From positions 1 to 42,803 of the forward strand of contig CADBUX010000007.1 in NCBI GenBank assembly GCA_902797995.1: a stretch of DNA of 42,803 bases, written 5' to 3'. Positions 45 to 30,468 of the stretch are shown piece after piece (the stretch's first letter is position 1; every line of letters starts with the position of its first letter). The position numbers and the translations under genes were made by a program. The notes under the pieces are model-generated. The model made no database searches. It saw nothing but the letters and a program-made list of their open reading frames with translations, and had not been told where the DNA came from. The stretch comes from an uncultured Erysipelotrichaceae bacterium (GTDB lineage Bacteria > Bacillota_I > Bacilli_A > RF39 > UBA660).

Positions 45-794
45 TTAACTAAGTACTTGACTTGCTCCTACTTTTAGTTTGAATGAGAATGTTCCTCCTT
101 CTTGTCCTATCTTTTGATCATATCCCCATATTTCTCCAGCTGATTCACAAGTTTCTTTAGTAGTATATGTTTGATTGCTACAATATCCATCTGTTACAGT
201 TGGTGTTAAAGATCCGCTTCCTGATCCTTCATTTGCTACCCAAGCTTTCACTTTATATTCTATAGTTTTTGTAGTATTTACTGTTGCAGAATCTAATTTA
301 TATCCTGTTATACTTGTATCATATTGTCCTGCACTTGTTTTAATACTACTTACTAGTACTCCAGTTGTTGCAGATGATCCTGCAAGAGTTGTTGCAGATG
401 ATCCTGCAAGATATGTAGTATTACTATTATCTACTTTTGATGCTTGTATTTTTATATTGTTTTCTGTTAAAGCGCTACTGTTTGTTACATCATATAATGC
501 TACATCATATCCTATATTCATTGTTCCTGCCATAGTGGCTGCTAAAGTACATGTTGCTTCATTGTTTTCTAAGGCAATACCTTGTTCATCTGTTAATACA
601 CTTGTATTTTCTAATGTAAAATTAGTTTCCGTACATGTCATTGTTACATACCCAGTTGTAAGTTTATTTTCTTTTACCCCAGTTAGATTTGCAGTAAATA
701 CTGCGAACGAAACTCCTACGATAGCTACTACAAGTAGTAACACTCCTGCTGCTGTTAATAGTTTTACCTTTTTATCTTTACTTTTATTATTCAT
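45..794 (-). CDS. TasA/camelysin-like secreted protein with SipW-type signal peptide
   Basis: A 249-residue exported protein. The N-terminus is lysine-rich, followed by one hydrophobic helix (about residues 11-34) and the segment AVFTANLTGVKENKLTTGYV, typical of SipW-dependent precursors of the TasA/camelysin family, whose members form surface or matrix fibres. It shares the motif LTDEQGIALEN with its upstream neighbour (ITDEQGMNLEH), so the two are paralogs. Residues 129-144 carry a perfect 8-residue tandem duplication. Near the C-terminus is a two-Cys segment (CSNQTYTTKETCESAGEIW), a small Cys-pair module also seen in phage and surface proteins. The start at 794 has a GGAAGGA site about 10 bases upstream; the preceding gene ends at 820. 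The fibre role is family knowledge; the substrate of assembly is unknown. Confidence 0.75.
   Translation of the reverse strand: MNNKSKDKKVKLLTAAGVLLLVVAIVGVSFAVFTANLTGVKENKLTTGYVTMTCTETNFTLENTSVLTDEQGIALENNEATCTLAATMAGTMNIGYDVALYDVTNSSALTENNIKIQASKVDNSNTTYLAGSSATTLAGSSATTGVLVSSIKTSAGQYDTSITGYKLDSATVNTTKTIEYKVKAWVANEGSGSGSLTPTVTDGYCSNQTYTTKETCESAGEIWGYDQKIGQEGGTFSFKLKVGASQVLS
363..410 (-). repeat. Perfect 24-bp tandem duplication inside the TasA-like gene
   Basis: The 24-base unit at 363-386 is repeated exactly at 387-410, in frame, adding eight residues (LAGSSATT twice). Two identical copies without drift suggest a recent slippage event or a length-variable surface segment. Confidence 0.95.
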
Positions 795-819
795 ATTTTA
801 TTCATTCCTTCCTTTTTCA

Positions 820-1470
820 CTACACTGCTGCTTGACCATCTACTTTTATTTTTAGTTTATATTGTAATTTTGTTGATGCATTCCAACTACTTGCGTTTAC
901 TTGACTATCTATCCACATTTTTAATCTATACTTCGTTGTTATTGTTTGATTAGCTGTATTATGACTATTTACAATATTTGCTTTTAATTGTCCAGTGGTT
1001 CCTGATGTAATAATGTTGCTAACTAAAGTTGGTGCCACTACTTGTGTTTCATCTGCAAGAGCACCAGATCCTGTATAACTTGCTAAATATACTTTAATCT
1101 GATCATCATTAAATGCTGTATATCCTGAATCTACTTCTTCTTTCATTATTGAAATATTATAAGTAATATCTCCTGGAGAACCACTTGCTGATGTTGATAC
1201 TTCAAAATCAAAAACTCCTGATGAACCATCACTATGTTCTAAATTCATTCCTTGTTCATCTGTTATTGGAAATGCATTTTCAATATTAATTGAATCTTTT
1301 GATTCAAGCATTTTCATAGAAATGTTACCTGTTGTTATAGTATTTGGTTTACTCGTAAATGTAAATGTAAATGCTGCTACTGCAAAGCCTATTACTGCTA
1401 CTAATAAAGCAAGTACTGCAGCAATTGCATAAAAATTATCTTTTTTTTGAGTATTATGTTCTTCTAACAT
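820..1470 (-). CDS. TasA/camelysin-like secreted protein, first gene of operon
   Basis: A 216-residue exported protein with a charged N-terminus, one hydrophobic segment (about residues 13-36) and the SipW-family hallmark PNTITTGNISMKM just after the membrane segment. The body is Ser/Thr/Asn-rich with predicted beta content and no Cys, as in TasA-type fibre subunits. It is clearly paralogous to the next gene (shared TTG...M and TDEQG motifs). The ATG at 1470 has an AGAGGTGG site close upstream. A possible promoter (TTTACA, 17 bases, TAAATT) lies inside and just past the polC terminator, but it is weak. Role as a surface or matrix protein is inferred from the family. Confidence 0.75.
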   Translation of the reverse strand: MLEEHNTQKKDNFYAIAAVLALLVAVIGFAVAAFTFTFTSKPNTITTGNISMKMLESKDSINIENAFPITDEQGMNLEHSDGSSGVFDFEVSTSASGSPGDITYNISIMKEEVDSGYTAFNDDQIKVYLASYTGSGALADETQVVAPTLVSNIITSGTTGQLKANIVNSHNTANQTITTKYRLKMWIDSQVNASSWNASTKLQYKLKIKVDGQAAV

Positions 1471-1500
1471 ATTATTCCACCTCTAGTATAAATTTAACAT

Positions 1501-1544
1501 AAAAATAAGAAGATGTAAACTGTTTTGAACGATTTACACCTTCT
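1501..1544 (-). terminator. Intrinsic terminator after polC
   Basis: A 12-bp stem (1533-1544 with 1508-1519, one G-U pair in RNA) is followed on the minus strand by a T-rich tract. It separates polC from the TasA-like operon. Confidence 0.85.
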
Positions 1545-1555
1545 TTTACGGTTAA

Positions 1556-4500
1556 TTAAAATAGTGATAATTGACTTGATTGCGGCAAGTCTTTTAAGAT
1601 TCCCATTATTTCCATTTTTTCAGTAAGTGTTTGAGATACTTTGCATCTTTTTTGGAACTCTTCAATACTAATGAAATTTCTTTGTTTTCTTTCTTCAACT
1701 ATGTTTTGAGCAACTACATCTCCAAGACCATCTATTGCTCTAAATGGTGGTATTAATGTATCTTTATCAATAACAAAGTTCTTAGAATCACTTTTTTCTA
1801 AATCAACACTTCCAAACTTAAGTCCTCTTGCAGTCATTTCAAGTGCTACTTCTAAAGTTGTAATAAGATCTTGTTCTTTTGGAGTTAATCCAAATTTTTT
1901 AAGTTTTAGTTCTGCGAGTCTTTCTTTTATTTTATCATATCCCATTTCCATTGCTTCTAAGTCAAATGCTTGTCCTTTAATTGAGAAAAAGCATGCATAA
2001 TACTCTATTGGTCTATTTATTTTATACCAAGCAATCCTCCAGGCTGCAGAAACATAAGCAGTGGCATGAGCTTTGGGGAACATGTACTTAATCTTATCAC
2101 AGGAGTCTATATACCAATCAGGAATATTTTTTTCTTTTAATAATTTTTTATATTCATCCCATTTATCTTTCATTTTCTTTTGTCTACCTTTACGAACTAG
2201 TTCCATTATTTTAAAGGCATCAAGTGGTTCGATACCATGATTTGATAAATATACCATGATATCATCACGACACCCAATTGTTTCTTTAAATGGACACACG
2301 TTATTTCTAACTAATTCTTGGGCATTTCCATTCCATACGTCAGTACCATGAGAAAGTCCTGATATTTTTACTAGTTCTGCAAAAGTGGTCGGTTTTGTCT
2401 CTAAAACTATCCCTATAACAAATCTTGTAAACTCTGGAAGTCCTAAGCACCCTACTTCGCATTCTATTTGTTCTGGGGTTACTCCAAGAGCTTTAGTCGA
2501 TGTAAACAAGCTCATTACTTCTTTATCATCCATAGGAATTGTTTCGGGATCGATTCCAGTAAGCTCTTTAATCATTTTGAATATTGTAGGGTTATCGTGT
2601 CCTAGTATATCAAGTTTTAAAAGGCAATCTTCTATATCATGATAGTTAAAATGCGTTGTTGCCCATTCAGCAGTTACATCATCTGCAGGATACTGGTAAG
2701 GAGTAAAATCGAATATTTCTTTGTAATCAGGTACAACTACTATTCCACCTGGGTGTTGTCCTGTAGTTCTTTTTACTCCAGTTACACCACGCGCTAGACG
2801 TTCTACTTCTAAAGAGCGCACTCCTTCGATACCTTTATCTTCATAGTAACCTTTTACAAAACCAAAGGCTGTTTTTTCTGCAACAGTTCCAATGGTACCA
2901 GCACGATATACATGATCTTCTCCAAATAGTACTTTTGTATAGTCATGAGCTTTGGCTTGATAATCACCAGAGAAATTTAAATCAATATCCGGTACTTTGT
3001 CTGCATTAAATCCTAAAAAGGTTGCAAATGGCATGTCTTGTCCTTCTTTACGCATATTCTCTCCACATTCGCACTTTCTATCAGGAAGGTCATATCCACT
3101 TGGGTAATCTTTACCAAAAGGAGTACCATCATCGTAATAGAAAATACTTTTTTTACAATTTGGACAAACGTAATGTGCAGGAAGTGGGTTTACTTCAGTT
3201 ATACCAAGCATGGTGGCTACAAATGATGATCCTACTGAACCACGAGAACCTACAACATAGCCATCAGCATTACTTTTCCATACTAGTTTTTGGGCTATAA
3301 GATATATAGAATCAAATCCTCCGTTTATTATACCTTTAAGTTCTGATTCTAAGCGATCTTCTACTTCTTTAGGAAGAGGATTTCCATATATAGAGTGGGC
3401 TTTTTCATAACAAATATTTCTTATAGTTTCTTTACTATTTTCAAACTTCGGAGAAAATGGAATTCCTTTGGTATCTGGAATTATTTCAAAGTCTTCGATA
3501 AGATCCGCGATTTTATTTGTATTTGTTATTACTATCTCTTTAGATAGCTCTTCTCCTAGGAAAGAAAAGTCATTTAACATTTCATTTGTTGTTCTAAAAT
3601 GCATGGATGGAATAGATTTAATATCTTTTCTATTAAGTGGATGCCTTCCACCACCAGGTACTTTCTGATTAACTATTATTTCACGATATATTTTATCGCT
3701 TCTATCTAAATGATGAACATCTCCGGTTGCTACAACGATTTTGTTTTTGTCTTTAGCAACTTTAATTATCTTTTTGATATTATCTTCTACTTCTTCCATG
3801 TTTTTAAAATCAGATAAGTCTATTAAGTGAGAGTAGACTTCTGGAGGTTGTACTTCTATATAATCATAGAAATTCATTAAGTCACTAACTTCTTCTTCAC
3901 TTTTAGAACGTGCTAATCTAAATATTTCTCCGTTTGCACATGATGATCCTATTAAAAGTCCTTCTCTATGCTTTTCTATTTCACTTCTTAGTATTCTTGG
4001 AGTTTTATATAAATACTTTGTATTAGCATAACTTACTATTTTAAATAGATTTTTTAATCCTACCCCATTTTTTACTAATATATTTATATGGAATAGTTCT
4101 CCAAATTTATGAATTTCATCTTTACTTACTAAGGTATTTATTTCAGATGCTTTTAGTATTTTTCTTGTTTTTAATTTTAATAACATTTTGTGGAATATTT
4201 TAGCGGTTGCATCAGCATCATAATCTGCTCTATGGTGACCACTCTCATCAAACTCTATGTCGTATCTTTTTACTAAAGCTGATAATGAATGTCTTGAATA
4301 CTCTGTATCTAGTGCACGTGATAATTGAAGAGTATCAATAAGCATGTTTTTATATTCACCAAGATTATATTTGCCATAGGCCATTTCTAAGAATGAAGCA
4401 TCAAATTTAGCATTATGTGCAACCATGGGAAGGTCCCCAGTCCACTTGATAAACTCTTTTACTACTTCTTCTTCACTTGGACAATCGACAAGCATTTCAT

Positions 4501-16189: not shown

Positions 16190-17767
16190 TTATTCGCTAT
16201 AAATGGTAGCAATTGATTCAAAAATCTTGATTCCATCCATAGCAGAAGTAGTTATTCCTCCAGCATATCCTGCACCTTCTCCGCAGGGGTAAATGCCTCT
16301 TATATTAGACATATAGTTATCATCTCTATAAAACTGAATTGGAGATGATGTTCTTGACTCAACTGCAAGAAGTGTTCCATCTTTAAAACCCGGAATTTTT
16401 TTATCAAAATAATTAATTCCTTCTTTTATTGATGAAGATATGTAGTTTGGAATCAAGTTATTTATATTACATGATATATATTTACCTTTAATAGCATTCT
16501 TAATAAAAGATAAATCTTTTGAGGTATCATTGTTTACAAAGTCCATGAACTTTTGACTAGGTATTAATCCCTTACCTATTTCATAGGCTTTTTTCTCTAG
16601 CCTTTCTTGAAACTTAACTCCATCAAACGTATCATAGCCATAGTCTTCCTGATTTACTGTTACTACAATAGCACTGTTGGAAAATTTGCTATCACGTTTA
16701 TAATTACTCATTCCGTTTATTACTAATCTTTCTTTTTTAGAAGATGAATTTACTACATATCCTCCCGGACACATACAAAACGAATATACTCCTCTTCCTT
16801 CTTTAGTTTTATATGTTAGTTTATAAGAAGCTGGCTCTAAAAATTTATAAAAATTTCCATACTGTTTTTTATTAATCAGTTCTTGATCATGAATTATTCT
16901 TAATCCTACTGCAAATGGTTTACTATGCATATCAAGACCTTTTTCATATAACATTTTAAATGTATCTCTTGCACTGTGTCCTATAGCTAAAACTAATGTT
17001 TCGCATGGAAGCAGTTCTTTACTGTTTAATACTATTTTTTCTATTTTGTTATCATTTATGATTATATCTGTAAGAGTGGTATTATATCTAAATTCTCCAC
17101 CCATTTCTATTATTTTATTTCTCATATTAATAACTACGTTTCTTAATATATCTGTTCCAATATGGGGATTATTTACATACATTATCTCTTCAGGGGCACC
17201 ACATTTTACAAATACTTCGAACACTTTTTTCATTCTACTTTCTTTATCTTTTACTAAAGTATTTAGTTTTCCATCAGAAAAAGTTCCTGCTCCTCCTTCT
17301 CCAAATTGAACATTCGAATTCTCTTTTAAGGTTCCATTTTCCCAAAACTCGTTTACAGTTTTAATTCTATCATCAATAGGTTCTCCTCGTTCGATAATTA
17401 TTGGTTTAAACCCTTGTTCTGCTAAAGTATAGGCACAAAAAAGTCCTGCTGGTCCACTTCCTATTATAATTGGTCTATACTTCATTTCTTTAGTACCTGT
17501 TTTTTTGAAATTATAAAATTTTTCTTCTACACATGATATATCATTTGATTTGTTTCTTTTTAATATTTGTTTTTCATTTTCTAATGTAATATAAAGTTCA
17601 TATACAAAGTGAACGTTATTTTTGTCTCTTGCATCAACAGACTTTTTATTTATTTTTATATTTTTAATACTATTTTCCTCGATTTTTAATTTTTTAGATA
17701 CTTTTTTTAAAACTAGTTCATAATTATCATTATCTACAGGAATTTTTATGTTTCTTACTCTAATCAT
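16190..17767 (-). CDS. FAD-dependent dehydrogenase, COG2509 type
   Basis: A flavoprotein of the uncharacterised COG2509 family. The start is placed at ATG 17767 (MIRVRNIKIPV) with an AAAGGA site, overlapping the stop of the preceding gene by eight bases. About 525 residues. An N-terminal accessory domain (1-95) precedes the dinucleotide-binding fold IIIGSGPAGLFCAYTLAEQG. Later motifs: GEGGAGTFSDGKLNTL, LAIGHSARDTF, CMCPGGYVVNSS, and the C-terminal FAD site YPCGEGAGYAGGITTSAMDG. All are typical. The physiological substrate is unknown; BaiN-like and COG2509 proteins are often neighbours. Expression is coupled to the upstream flavoprotein and sortase-like genes. Confidence 0.9.
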   Translation of the reverse strand: MIRVRNIKIPVDNDNYELVLKKVSKKLKIEENSIKNIKINKKSVDARDKNNVHFVYELYITLENEKQILKRNKSNDISCVEEKFYNFKKTGTKEMKYRPIIIGSGPAGLFCAYTLAEQGFKPIIIERGEPIDDRIKTVNEFWENGTLKENSNVQFGEGGAGTFSDGKLNTLVKDKESRMKKVFEVFVKCGAPEEIMYVNNPHIGTDILRNVVINMRNKIIEMGGEFRYNTTLTDIIINDNKIEKIVLNSKELLPCETLVLAIGHSARDTFKMLYEKGLDMHSKPFAVGLRIIHDQELINKKQYGNFYKFLEPASYKLTYKTKEGRGVYSFCMCPGGYVVNSSSKKERLVINGMSNYKRDSKFSNSAIVVTVNQEDYGYDTFDGVKFQERLEKKAYEIGKGLIPSQKFMDFVNNDTSKDLSFIKNAIKGKYISCNINNLIPNYISSSIKEGINYFDKKIPGFKDGTLLAVESRTSSPIQFYRDDNYMSNIRGIYPCGEGAGYAGGITTSAMDGIKIFESIATIYSE

Positions 17768-18980
17768 TTGCAATATCCTTTCCTGCAAGAATTGCGCTTA
17801 TCGCTGCAAAGGCTATGTTGTATCCACCACATTTACCATCCACATCTATAATTTCTCCAGTAAAATATAAATTTGGTACAATTAAAGACTCAAAAGTATT
17901 TGTATTAATCTCTGTAAGAGGAATTCCTCCTTTACATACTTGGGCATTGTCAAATGTGTTGGTATCAATAATACTTATATTAAAATGTATTAGTTTATCT
18001 AATATAAGTGTAATCTCATCCTTATCAAGTTCATTATAATGTTTATCTTTTTTGATATGCAATTTTTCTAATATAACATTTGTAATTTTATAATCAAGAA
18101 AGCTATCTAAAAGTTCCGCAATAGTCCTATTACTTGCTTTACTACTTAGTTCTTTTAATATTCGATATGCATTTGCTAAGTCATATACATCTAAATCACG
18201 TAAAAAATTAATCTTAATATTTACTTTTTTATTGTTATCAAGCATTGACCTAATAATACTACTTAAATTGAATATGCATATACCACTCACTCCATAATCT
18301 GTAAACTGTATTTGTCCGTATTCCTCTTCATCTGTATGCTCTATAGATACCAAGGCATTACATCTTACTCCGCTTAAATCTTTTATAAATTTATCGTTTG
18401 ATTTTAAGCTAACAAGAGATGGCATAACTTTATTTATAGTGTGTCCAAATTCTTTTGCCAAATTATAACCATTTCCATCAGAGCCAGTTTTTGGGTAAGC
18501 TTTTGAGCCTGTGCTAATTACTAATTTATCACAAATGTATTCTTCGTTATTAGTATATACATAGAATAAATCATTTGCTTTTTTAATCTCTTTTATATAA
18601 CAATTAGTTATTAATTTTATATTTTTAGTTTCTATTTCTTTTAATAAAGCATTTTTTACTGTAATAGCCTGATTAGAATAAGGATAATAATAGCCATCTT
18701 TTATTCTAGGAATTATTCCAATCGATTCAAAAAAATTAAGTGCAAGTAACTCATTAGTATCATTAATAATTAAAGGTAATAATTCTTGATTATTAGAATT
18801 ATAGAAACGTGTACTAAAAAACTCATTAAAATAATTACATTTTCCATTTCCCGTCATTAAAAGTTTTTTTAAGGGATTATTATTTCTTTCAAGAATTATT
18901 ACTTCATTATTATTATTTTTTGCATTAATGGCTGCAATAAAACCAGAGATTCCTCCTCCAACTACTATAACTTTTTTCAT
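17760..18980 (-). CDS. BaiN/YhiN (HI0933) family flavoprotein
   Basis: A 406-residue FAD/NAD(P)-binding protein of the HI0933/YhiN family, whose member BaiN has been linked to reduction steps in bile-acid 7-dehydroxylation; other members have no known substrate. Seen: VIVVGGGISGFIAAINA at the N-terminus; KLLMTGNGKCNYFN, the family signature; STGSKAYPKTGSDGNGYNLA; QFTDYGVSGICIFNLS; and the C-terminal KGGIPLTEIN and GEIIDVDGKCGGYNIAFA motifs. The GAGGACG ribosome site overlaps the end of the sortase-like gene, so the three genes form one operon. No bile-acid genes are nearby, so no such role is claimed. Confidence 0.92.
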   Translation of the reverse strand: MKKVIVVGGGISGFIAAINAKNNNNEVIILERNNNPLKKLLMTGNGKCNYFNEFFSTRFYNSNNQELLPLIINDTNELLALNFFESIGIIPRIKDGYYYPYSNQAITVKNALLKEIETKNIKLITNCYIKEIKKANDLFYVYTNNEEYICDKLVISTGSKAYPKTGSDGNGYNLAKEFGHTINKVMPSLVSLKSNDKFIKDLSGVRCNALVSIEHTDEEEYGQIQFTDYGVSGICIFNLSSIIRSMLDNNKKVNIKINFLRDLDVYDLANAYRILKELSSKASNRTIAELLDSFLDYKITNVILEKLHIKKDKHYNELDKDEITLILDKLIHFNISIIDTNTFDNAQVCKGGIPLTEINTNTFESLIVPNLYFTGEIIDVDGKCGGYNIAFAAISAILAGKDIAND

Positions 18981-18982
18981 AT

Positions 18983-19681
18983 CTATTCGTCCTCTACACC
19001 AATTACTAGTTGATAAGAAGGATTAGCATCGCAACCTTCTTCTAAAGTACAAGTCTCTATAATTATTATTTTAGAGGTTTCATCAACTATTGCATCCGAA
19101 TCATATAAAGATTTTTCCTTGAAATCAAGTAAGTGTTCATAATATCCCAAACCAGTATAACCGTTTAAATTAACGTAATCAAAATTCTCTTTTTCAATAT
19201 AACTTGAAAATATTTTATAGGTTCTTTTACCAGAATTAGTATAAACATTTATATATTGGTGATTTCTAAAAAAACTTTCATCTTTATAATCCAATAATTT
19301 TGATAAAGGTAAGGCTTTATCTAGTCTATTATTCCCATATACAATAATTTTTTTATCGTTCAATGATTTATTTCTATAATCTAAGAATGCTGTTCCACTT
19401 GAAGATTCTTTTTTTGAAATATCATGATTAAGATAAAAATCATTATTTTCAGTTTGAACAACAGGTACTGTTAAGGCATCTGGTATTTCAAGATACATAA
19501 CTATTTCGTTATTGTTATATTCTTCTTTAAGTTTATTAATTTTATCAGAGCTTTTTTCATCGTAATCAAATACAGGTTTGCTACTGTCTTCCATCACTTG
19601 ATACTCATAATGATTATATATTAGATATACGCAAACAAGCATACCAATAATACATAGACATAGTTTTAATACTTTTTTCAT
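18983..19681 (-). CDS. Sortase-B-like protein lacking the catalytic His and Arg
   Basis: A 232-residue protein with one N-terminal membrane anchor (about residues 5-21) and a class B sortase-type domain: VPVVQTENNDFYLNHD, SGTAFLDYRN, IIVYGNN, SFFRNHQYINVY, YKIFSSYIEKENFDY, and IIIIETCTLEEGC at the C-terminus. In active sortases the tract reads YGHN with the catalytic His; here it is YGNN (Asn117). The nucleophile-position Cys is present (Cys211), but no Arg occurs between it and the C-terminus, where SYQLVIG replaces the usual Arg-containing strand. Either this is a pseudoenzyme or its chemistry is altered. It heads an operon with two flavoproteins behind its own promoter. No LPXTG or NPQTN substrate is visible in the window. 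Confidence 0.85.
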   Translation of the reverse strand: MKKVLKLCLCIIGMLVCVYLIYNHYEYQVMEDSSKPVFDYDEKSSDKINKLKEEYNNNEIVMYLEIPDALTVPVVQTENNDFYLNHDISKKESSSGTAFLDYRNKSLNDKKIIVYGNNRLDKALPLSKLLDYKDESFFRNHQYINVYTNSGKRTYKIFSSYIEKENFDYVNLNGYTGLGYYEHLLDFKEKSLYDSDAIVDETSKIIIIETCTLEEGCDANPSYQLVIGVEDE

Positions 19682-19708: not shown

Positions 19709-19737
19709 ATTTTAACATATTATGATGCTTTTTTCAA
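19709..19737 (-). promoter_or_regulatory. Promoter of the sortase-like operon
   Basis: TTGAAA (19732-19737), 17 bases, TAAAAT (19709-19714). The -35 overlaps the ftsW stop codon. Confidence 0.75.
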
Positions 19738-20819
19738 TTATTTACTTTAGATTGATTTAAAATTATACCAATAGATATCATAGTAACAAGAAGAGAGCTT
19801 CCTCCGTAAGAGATAAATGGAAGTGTTACTCCAGTTACAGGAATTAAACCTATTACTACACTTAAATTAAGTATTGTTTGAAATATAATTTGAAAACCTA
19901 AACCAAAAATTACATACTTTTTAAATAAATCATTTTGTTCAAGAGCAAGTTTTATTATTAGATAGCAAAGAATAGAAAACAACGATACTACTATTAATGC
20001 TCCGAAGACACCAAACTCTTCGCAAATTATAGAAAAGATAAAGTCTGTTTGAGGTTCAGGTAAGTAAAAATGCTTTTGTCTTGAGTTTAAAAACCCAAAA
20101 CCAAGAAGGCCACCAGGTCCAATTGCATAAAGACTTTGTATTATTTGAAACCCTGTTCCTAATGGATCAGACCACGGATTTAAAAACGATGTAATTCTAT
20201 CTAATCTATATGGCGCAATTAGAATAAGAATAATGGCTCCTGCTAGTCCAAGCATACCAAACATATAAAAGTACTTCATATTAACACCAGATACAAATAA
20301 AACTGAAATAATAGACATAACAAGAATAACACCTGTACCAAAATCAGGTTGTAGCATTATTAAAAAGAAAGCAAGCCCCATAACAATAAGTGGAGGAATT
20401 ATTGTTTTAAATTTTTTATAGGCATTTTTATTATCATTTAAATATTTTGAAGCAAATATAATCATAGCAAGTTTCATTGCTTCACTAGGCTGAATTCCAA
20501 ATGGTCCAATACCAAACCAACTTCTAGATCCATTTCTAACAGAACCAATTCCAGGTATTAAAACAAGTATAAGTAGGATAAAAGAGGCAAAAAGAAAATA
20601 TTTGGAATTTTTATAAAAAAAGTCATTATCTAGTTTCATGATAAATCTTAGTACAATAAAACCTATTATCACAAATATTGCTTGTTGTTTAACATATTTA
20701 AGACTATCCCCAAATTTATAACCAGCCCAAATATAAGATGAAGAAAAAATCATAACAAGTCCAATGAAAATTAATAAACACATTGTAATAAATAATAATA
20801 ATCTCTTATTTTTAAGCAT
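19734..20819 (-). CDS. ftsW: FtsW/RodA/SpoVE (SEDS) peptidoglycan glycosyltransferase
   Basis: A 361-residue SEDS membrane protein with about ten helices that polymerises lipid II into glycan strands together with a class B PBP. Motifs: GLVMIFSSSY in helix 1; SRSWFGIGPFGIQPSEAMKL; MLQPDFGTGV; GGLLGFGFLNSRQKHFYLPE followed by PQTDFIFSIICEEFG, which includes the catalytic-site Asp; and TGVTLPFISYGGSSLL. These favour FtsW/SpoVE over RodA, but the division is not certain. The likely PBP partner is at 10917-13016. It has its own promoter and a GGTGAT ribosome site. Confidence 0.92.
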   Translation of the reverse strand: MLKNKRLLLFITMCLLIFIGLVMIFSSSYIWAGYKFGDSLKYVKQQAIFVIIGFIVLRFIMKLDNDFFYKNSKYFLFASFILLILVLIPGIGSVRNGSRSWFGIGPFGIQPSEAMKLAMIIFASKYLNDNKNAYKKFKTIIPPLIVMGLAFFLIMLQPDFGTGVILVMSIISVLFVSGVNMKYFYMFGMLGLAGAIILILIAPYRLDRITSFLNPWSDPLGTGFQIIQSLYAIGPGGLLGFGFLNSRQKHFYLPEPQTDFIFSIICEEFGVFGALIVVSLFSILCYLIIKLALEQNDLFKKYVIFGLGFQIIFQTILNLSVVIGLIPVTGVTLPFISYGGSSLLVTMISIGIILNQSKVNN

Positions 20820-29439: not shown

Positions 29440-30321
29440 TCATTTATTAATTCTTTGTGTTTCTACTATTTTTAATATTTTATCCAAATATAATTTTTCT
29501 CTTATTTCATTGATACCAAAACATTTTTTACCTACATCTTTTAAAGATGATCCGCATAAGTATAAATAATATCTATCTATAATAATAAATCTATCGTGAA
29601 ACGAGTCATTATTTATAAATGTTATGTTTTTATATTGACTTTCATATTTTTCTTTTAGTTTTTTATCTATATTACTAGATACTATTACTATTCTTTTGCT
29701 AATACTTTTTAATATATCTAGTAACTCTTTTCCAGCATAGTTATCAATTATAATTATCTCATCTCTCGCACTATTTAGAATATCTAATACGACGGAATAT
29801 GCATCATAAAAGTCTCCTTGAAAGAATATATAATTTTTCACAATATCTTTTGGATCAAATTTATCGAATAATTCATTTATTCTTTTTGTGTTATTATCTA
29901 CTTTTTCTTCAAGCAGTAAGAATCTTCTAGGTAAGGCGTCCATATTGTAATTAATATAGTGCCTCATTTTTACAAATGTATCCATTATTGCTATTGATAC
30001 TTTTGTAGCAACTTTAGATTTTAACACTGTTGCAAGCATATAGACTCCTTGCTCTGTAAATACTCTTGGATTGGCCCTAGACATACTACTTATATTTGCG
30101 GTCGAAAATTTCGACCACAAATTCTCTTTTTCTAGATTAGTCAGTGTGAAACTAAATCTCTCTGGAAATTTTTCAGGATTATTTTTTACAGCTTCATTAA
30201 TCCTTTTTGTTTCTACTTGATATAATTTTGCAAGATCAGTATCCAGCATTACTTCTACTCCCCTTATCCTGTATATTATATCCTCAATTTCGATGTTTTC
30301 TTTTTTCATTATTTCATTCAT
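29440..30321 (-). CDS. ORF6N-domain protein with C-terminal PLD-like domain
   Basis: The start is ATG 30319-30321 (MNEIMKKENIEIEDIIYRIR), preceded by AAAGGAGG; the longer frame (24 more residues) passes through the leader terminator and lacks a good site. 293 residues. Residues 14-120 are an ORF6N domain (IRGVEVMLDTDLAKLYQVET, FTLTNLEKENLWSKF, RVFTEQGVYMLATVLKS), known from phage antirepressor-like proteins. Residues 165-290 resemble a phospholipase-D-type fold (EIIIIDNYAGKELLDIL) with a single HDRFIIID motif, an HxR rather than HxK form, so nuclease activity is uncertain. Chromosomal copies of this architecture are common in gut bacteria; their function is unknown. It is isolated from any prophage genes here and is preceded by a structured leader. 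Confidence 0.88.
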   Translation of the reverse strand: MNEIMKKENIEIEDIIYRIRGVEVMLDTDLAKLYQVETKRINEAVKNNPEKFPERFSFTLTNLEKENLWSKFSTANISSMSRANPRVFTEQGVYMLATVLKSKVATKVSIAIMDTFVKMRHYINYNMDALPRRFLLLEEKVDNNTKRINELFDKFDPKDIVKNYIFFQGDFYDAYSVVLDILNSARDEIIIIDNYAGKELLDILKSISKRIVIVSSNIDKKLKEKYESQYKNITFINNDSFHDRFIIIDRYYLYLCGSSLKDVGKKCFGINEIREKLYLDKILKIVETQRINK

Positions 30322-30468
30322 TATAAAACCTCCTTTTAAAATAATAAAAAAGGTATACTTCTCTTTTCTAAGAAATATACCCGCATCATGCATATTTATT
30401 TCTTGTCCTAAATAAATACACCCTATCGTTTAAGTTGTCATATTAACGCTTGGCAAGTTAATTAATAC
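30322..30468 (-). promoter_or_regulatory. Structured 5' leader of the ORF6N gene, candidate attenuator
   Basis: From the promoter to the start codon the transcript has about 147 bases. It holds TTAAC/GTTAA pairing around TTGCCAAGC, a perfect 9-bp hairpin (30410-30418 with 30393-30401), a GCAT-rich turn and then a strong intrinsic terminator (30345-30382) directly before the ribosome binding site. This order suggests conditional read-through. It matches no riboswitch class that I recognise. Confidence 0.55.
30345..30382 (-). terminator. Terminator hairpin in the ORF6N leader
   Basis: A stem of about 12 bp (GGTATATTTCTT with AGAGAAGTATACC, with G-U pairs) followed by six T and a second T-rich stretch. 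It ends about 10 bases before the ORF6N ribosome site. Confidence 0.82.

Follow-up and report, generated by a model that had tools for sequence, protein, structure and literature searches.

A predicted natural pseudosortase lacking the catalytic His, from a clade of Arg-less class B sortase homologues

Class B sortases (SrtB) attach proteins to the cell wall. The enzymes of Staphylococcus aureus and Bacillus anthracis have an intact His-Cys-Arg triad together with a serine on strand beta7, act on the motifs NPQTN and NPKTG, and include the iron-acquisition protein IsdC among their substrates. SrtB of Clostridioides difficile (PDB 4ux7 and 5gyj), for which the sorting signal is (S/P)PxTG (PMC5118464), has a Cys209-His116-Arg217 triad and Ser207, and structures of its S207A (6kyc) and R217A (6kyd) mutants are available in the PDB. 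In sortases the His acts as the acid/base (PMC3019223), and in SrtB the P4 residue of the substrate is held jointly by the beta7 Ser, the Arg and a Tyr from the beta6-beta7 loop; the B. anthracis enzyme no longer binds once any one of the three is removed (PMC11987632). The Arg of class A sortases contacts P4/P3 and not the reactive carbonyl, and may position the substrate rather than stabilise the oxyanion; a laboratory-evolved, LMVGG-selective S. aureus SrtA in which this Arg was replaced by Ser still works (PMC9520033).

Here, we examined a SrtB-like protein encoded in a contig of an uncultured Erysipelotrichaceae bacterium; the whole stretch of DNA analysed (42,803 nucleotides) is referred to as the window and its genome as G000. 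The gene and the residues considered below are as follows.

18983..19681, minus strand: SrtB-like protein of the Arg-less "Q-type" clade described below; 232 aa, ATG start, N-terminal membrane anchor at residues about 5-23.
19331..19333, minus strand: Asn117 (AAT) of a YGNN tract, at the catalytic His position; His in 102 of 103 homologues.
19133..19135, minus strand: His183, a mark of the Q-type clade (93%), in a column usually aromatic in Arg-bearing SrtBs.
19055..19057, minus strand: Glu209 (GAG), two residues before the Cys; every one of the other 83 Q-type members has Gln here, and SrtBs with the Arg mostly have Ser.
19049..19054, minus strand: Thr210-Cys211, the nucleophile (TGT, 19049-19051) and the preceding Thr, both kept.
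19013..19015, minus strand: Tyr223, in the catalytic Arg column; Tyr, Phe, Lys, Leu or Asn throughout the Q-type clade.

The open reading frame was intact, with no stop or frameshift, and the anchor was recognised as a hydrophobic stretch by reading the sequence. The protein matched the class B sortase profile TIGR03064 (E = 8e-33) with 113.7 bits, which is below the curated equivalog cut-off of 153.75, and it does not have two of the three catalytic residues; no Pfam profile, PF04203 included, matched at E 1e-3. Its nearest sequence relatives in the PDB were C. difficile SrtB (E about 4e-27), with which it shares the fold, the Cys and the preceding Thr. An AlphaFold model with 6 sequences behind it was of medium confidence (mean pLDDT 68, and below 50 in the loop at 212-221), and the first 19 matches of this model in a Foldseek search of the PDB were all SrtB structures (E 4e-13 to 2e-10, probability 1.00), the enzymes of S. 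aureus and B. anthracis, which have the same domain plan, being found at E about 1e-12. These matches are in line with an earlier note on this DNA, which had described a sortase-B-like protein retaining anchor and Cys and had proposed structure prediction as a check; as judged from sequence and predicted model, the protein is clearly membrane-anchored and SrtB-like.

The earlier note had also reported that the catalytic His and Arg were missing, and both absences were confirmed. Asn117 reflects neither chance nor misalignment, as 102 of the 103 sequences in the alignment carry His in this column and the window protein is the only one with Asn, and between Cys211 and the C-terminus the protein contains no Arg, Lys or His at all. 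Orthologues with intact residues had been named as a possible sign of sequencing error, and here the two active-site positions gave different answers: in both same-genus orthologues (G003 and G001) codon 117 is CAT (His) and codon 209 is CAG or CAA (Gln), compared with AAT and GAG in the window, but the Arg column holds Tyr in both. Since both orthologues have His117, the loss of His is a recent change in the window lineage. At 17 columns conserved in at least 90% of the Q-type clade, the window protein departs at H117, F126 and Q209; it is the only member to depart at H117 or Q209, and 52 of the 84 members depart at no conserved column. Among the other 83 members, seven columns showed no variation (to two decimals); the window protein changes two of these (His117 and Gln209) and keeps five, including Cys211. 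On this alignment, the His loss and the replacement of Gln209 by Glu are private to the window copy.

The missing Arg has a different distribution. The window genome and hundreds of genomes from its family were sampled for homologues, giving 103 non-redundant sequences in which the Cys was present in all 103, the His in 102 and the Arg in only 19. A tree of 102 homologous domains separated 84 Q-type from 18 R-type sequences by one change on a single branch (SH-aLRT 99), within which the window protein nested with its orthologues from G003 and G001 (52% and 50% identity, respectively; SH-aLRT 99). In the Q-type sequences the Arg column was non-Arg in 84 of 84, mostly Tyr or Phe with a few Lys, Leu or Asn, and the residue two positions before the Cys was Gln in 83 of 84 (Glu in the window protein), whereas it was always Ser or Ala in the R-type sequences of this 102-domain set. 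The column of His183 was aromatic in nearly all R-type sequences, and no other new basic residue was found clade-wide among the aligned Q-type columns. TIGR03064 matched all 16 of the Q-type proteins tested. Arg loss is a trait of the whole clade and is not peculiar to the window gene.

We considered whether this pattern could arise in other ways. Misalignment of the Arg column was rejected because an independent HMMER alignment also placed the Arg of B. anthracis SrtB over the clade's Tyr. A shift of the Arg along the strand was likewise rejected: an Arg one residue earlier occurs in a few Q-type members (L117, L139, L140, L143, L144 and L163), is not conserved, and would face the opposite side of the strand. 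Coupling of Gln to Arg loss did not hold as an absolute rule, as exceptions were found beyond the Q-type clade in a wider sample. L307, from another family of the class, has Gln two residues before the Cys and keeps the Arg; L305 and L223, from the same family as the window, have Lys at the Arg position and keep the Ser; and L210 and L220 have Tyr together with Arg. It is possible that L305, L223 and L307 represent intermediates of a switch from Ser/Arg to Gln/aromatic. Among the loci read in this wider sample of the class and phylum, no Arg-less, Gln-type SrtB was found outside the family, and a scan of genome contigs yielded five distant SrtBs only.

Candidate substrates were scored by a C-terminal motif followed by a hydrophobic stretch and a basic tail, with FtsW look-alikes (PVTG..SYGGS) excluded. 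An adjacent same-strand gene with such a sorting signal was present at 29 of the 66 Q-type loci having an eligible neighbour. Overall, 30 of 103 adjacent genes carried a signal compared to 8 of 362 controls at least three genes away (Fisher p = 6e-15), a value that is indicative, as related loci are not fully independent. A total of 21 of the 30 motifs were PPxTx, 18 of these being PPxTG, the same kind of signal as that of C. difficile SrtB. Pfam searches of five neighbours identified domains in three: SpaA, VWA, and an Ig-like/fn3/Listeria-Bacteroides repeat protein. Two candidate substrates beside Q-type sortase genes stop directly at the motif, in VPPDTGIN (L067, 7970-9022, minus strand) and ITPPHTYVNY (L063, 7875-8606, minus strand) with no obvious hydrophobic tail, and have a truncated or unusual signal. 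The neighbour of the G001 orthologue (L051, 9203-12817, minus strand) is a 1204-aa IPNTG protein with a transglutaminase-like domain, fn3 and Ig-like domains and Listeria-Bacteroides repeats.

Because His and Cys are kept and genes with sorting signals often adjoin, we infer that most Q-type members are working sortases; thus, Arg loss alone does not mark an inactive enzyme. Across the Q-type clade, an aromatic or other residue stands in place of the catalytic Arg and a Gln in place of the beta7 Ser, while the Cys, the preceding Thr and the His are kept. In the mechanism that we favour, ordinary Q-type enzymes would rely on Cys-His and the Thr preceding the Cys to cut PPxTG-like signals, and the task of positioning the substrate would have passed from Ser and Arg to Gln209 and residue 223, perhaps together with His183. 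The switch from Ser/Arg to Gln/aromatic would thus have reshaped the P4 pocket and left the Cys-His-Thr chemistry as it was. A PPxTG substrate by itself does not require Arg loss, since C. difficile SrtB accepts a P4 Pro yet keeps its Arg. In that enzyme the positions altered in the S207A and R217A mutants are the ones exchanged in the Q-type clade, which has Gln for Ser and Tyr/Phe for Arg; the window protein has in addition Asn for His and Glu for the clade's Gln. The evolved S. aureus SrtA offers an analogous case of a working Arg-less sortase, although it is an engineered class A enzyme without a Gln swap.

For the window protein, selective active-site loss in a retained protein leads us to read it as a pseudosortase, with catalysis dead or crippled, that arose within an Arg-less, otherwise intact SrtB clade, a reading to which we assign a probability of about 0.58. 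The earlier note had suggested a pseudosortase and that remains the best reading, though on other grounds: what sets the protein apart is solely the loss of His, together with the change of Gln209 to Glu, and the Arg loss is shared by the clade. No paper using the term "pseudosortase" was found in the literature searched, which lay outside most subscription papers. According to this mechanism, the window copy would have given up both its general acid/base (His117 to Asn) and the clade Gln (to Glu), and would no longer complete a transpeptidation cycle while being retained as a membrane-anchored protein of the SrtB fold; as a guess, it may be retained because it can still bind a partner close to the FtsW site, or a sorting signal. 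On balance, we also favour the broader proposition of a whole natural clade of working class B sortases without the catalytic Arg, a residue regarded as strictly conserved, and with a coupled beta7 Ser to Gln change, of which the window protein would be the one known His-less derivative and a natural pseudosortase.

The window genome was searched for canonical sortases and sorting signals, as the earlier note had proposed, and both were present. Two SrtB-like genes with intact His, Cys and Arg were found on contigs 16 and 25, and PxTG-type signals included NPQTG (contig 16, near the canonical SrtB), NPNTG (contig 15) and VPDTG (contig 20), so that protein sorting could plausibly continue in this genome even without the window gene. 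A PPxTG substrate was not found in G000 by a pattern search that was non-exhaustive and left some matches unread. There was also a broken sortase on contig 17 (L003, about 1456-1960, minus strand), a second degenerate copy located after a SpaA-like protein ending in VPNTS; it has frame breaks, Tyr for the expected His and Gln for the expected Arg, keeps the Cys (LTTCKP), and is possibly a pseudogene or else an artefact of assembly.

The alternative that survives best, which we nevertheless regard as unlikely, is that the window gene is a decaying relic without present function, in which loss of a dedicated substrate relaxed selection and the active-site residues were the first to go on the way to a pseudogene. 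Consistent with this, no gene with a sorting signal adjoins the window sortase, nothing in G000 closely matches the 1204-aa IPNTG protein next to the G001 orthologue (best E = 8e-6), and a Q-type orthologue was not found in two of five sampled genus members (G002 and G004). However, G003 also has no adjacent substrate gene and its active site is intact. Decay is further opposed by the lack of any stop or frameshift, by constraint outside the active site, and by changes at two of the seven invariant positions with the remaining five intact. Comparison with the orthologues gave pN of 0.28-0.29 and pS of 0.56-0.69, that is, a rough pN/pS of about 0.4-0.5 with dS near saturation; no stops were present, although neutral accumulation of the missense load would predict about 6.5; and the end branch of the window protein (0.33 vs. 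a median of 0.26) was not unusually long. Judging from these substitution patterns, the gene is probably still under purifying selection.

Rather less likely still is a Cys enzyme that remains active because its site has been rewired, in which Glu209, Asn117 or His183 serves as acid/base for a different reaction such as hydrolysis or transfer to another acyl acceptor. The retained Thr210 and Cys211, the presence of His183 and the new acid placed near the Cys by the Gln209 to Glu change would all fit such an enzyme. Nevertheless, His183 also occurs in 77 other homologues that keep His117 and is thus no replacement for it, and the nearest relatives show nothing unusual on this point. To our knowledge, no sortase works without its His. 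Sequence or assembly error, under which the true protein would have His117 and be an ordinary Q-type sortase, seems improbable: the changes are single-base ones (CAT to AAT and CAG to GAG) in a genome represented by one 38-contig assembly, but two independent errors would have had to fall on two invariant catalytic-site positions of a gene otherwise free of frame errors.

The remaining alternative concerns the neighbouring genes, which are listed here.

19734..20819, minus strand: FtsW/RodA/SpoVE-family gene, upstream of the sortase gene.
19709..19737, minus strand: sequence resembling a promoter, TTGAAA-17-TAAAAT, its -10 preceded by TG, in the gap that separates ftsW from the sortase gene; weak evidence for a promoter.
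17760..18980, minus strand: HI0933-like/TIGR00275 FAD-binding protein; a neighbour, forming no conserved unit with the sortase gene.
16190..17788, minus strand: second FAD-dependent protein (PF21688), overlapping the first flavoprotein gene; a neighbour only.

The sortase gene lies 52 nt downstream of ftsW and is followed on the same strand by the two flavoprotein genes, with a 2-nt gap and then a 29-nt overlap between the flavoprotein genes themselves. The earlier note had the sortase gene leading an operon with these two genes; their order and strand agree with this, but the leading role is only plausible, as promoter-like matches here were no commoner than in shuffled sequence. The sortase-ftsW neighbourhood is common to the three genus members holding the gene, the order being S21-sortase-ftsW in G003 and S21-sortase-1204-aa IPNTG protein-another gene-ftsW in G001, where the IPNTG gene directly adjoins the sortase gene and two genes are thus inserted before ftsW. 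Conservation of the flavoprotein linkage was not borne out: the pair was absent from the sortase loci of G001 and G003, which are contiguous in assemblies that are 79% and 52% complete, and G002 has the same overlapping pair with no Q-type sortase found in that genome. Given this incompleteness, not finding the pair at other places in G001 and G003 counts for little. The most fitting reading is that the pair arrived beside the window sortase gene as a cassette, making the link accidental. A redox enzyme partnered with the two downstream flavoproteins, which the earlier note had offered as a Cys enzyme with redox partners and which tight packing might suggest, is therefore very improbable, since the linkage is not conserved, the flavoproteins look cytosolic from their sequences while the sortase domain appears to lie outside the membrane, and this domain contains no CxxC-type motif. 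Elsewhere in the window, a gene at 29440-30393 (minus strand), far from the sortase gene, is related to one at L051 12891-13775 (minus strand), which in G001 separates ftsW from the sortase locus; the gene (cluster c28) is possibly mobile. Two related secreted proteins at 45-1470 (minus strand) resemble TasA/CalY-type (camelysin) fibre proteins by eye.

Overall, the clade, rather than the single window gene, is the more interesting object. At least 84 natural Arg-less SrtB-like proteins with the Gln swap and neighbouring candidate substrates make the role of the Arg directly testable, and the swap falls on a position whose contact with the substrate is known. To these the window protein adds, in the same scaffold, a case in which the His was lost naturally. 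If the reading of the clade is true, sortase chemistry would need only Cys-His(-Thr), and the Arg would be a replaceable substrate-positioning residue.
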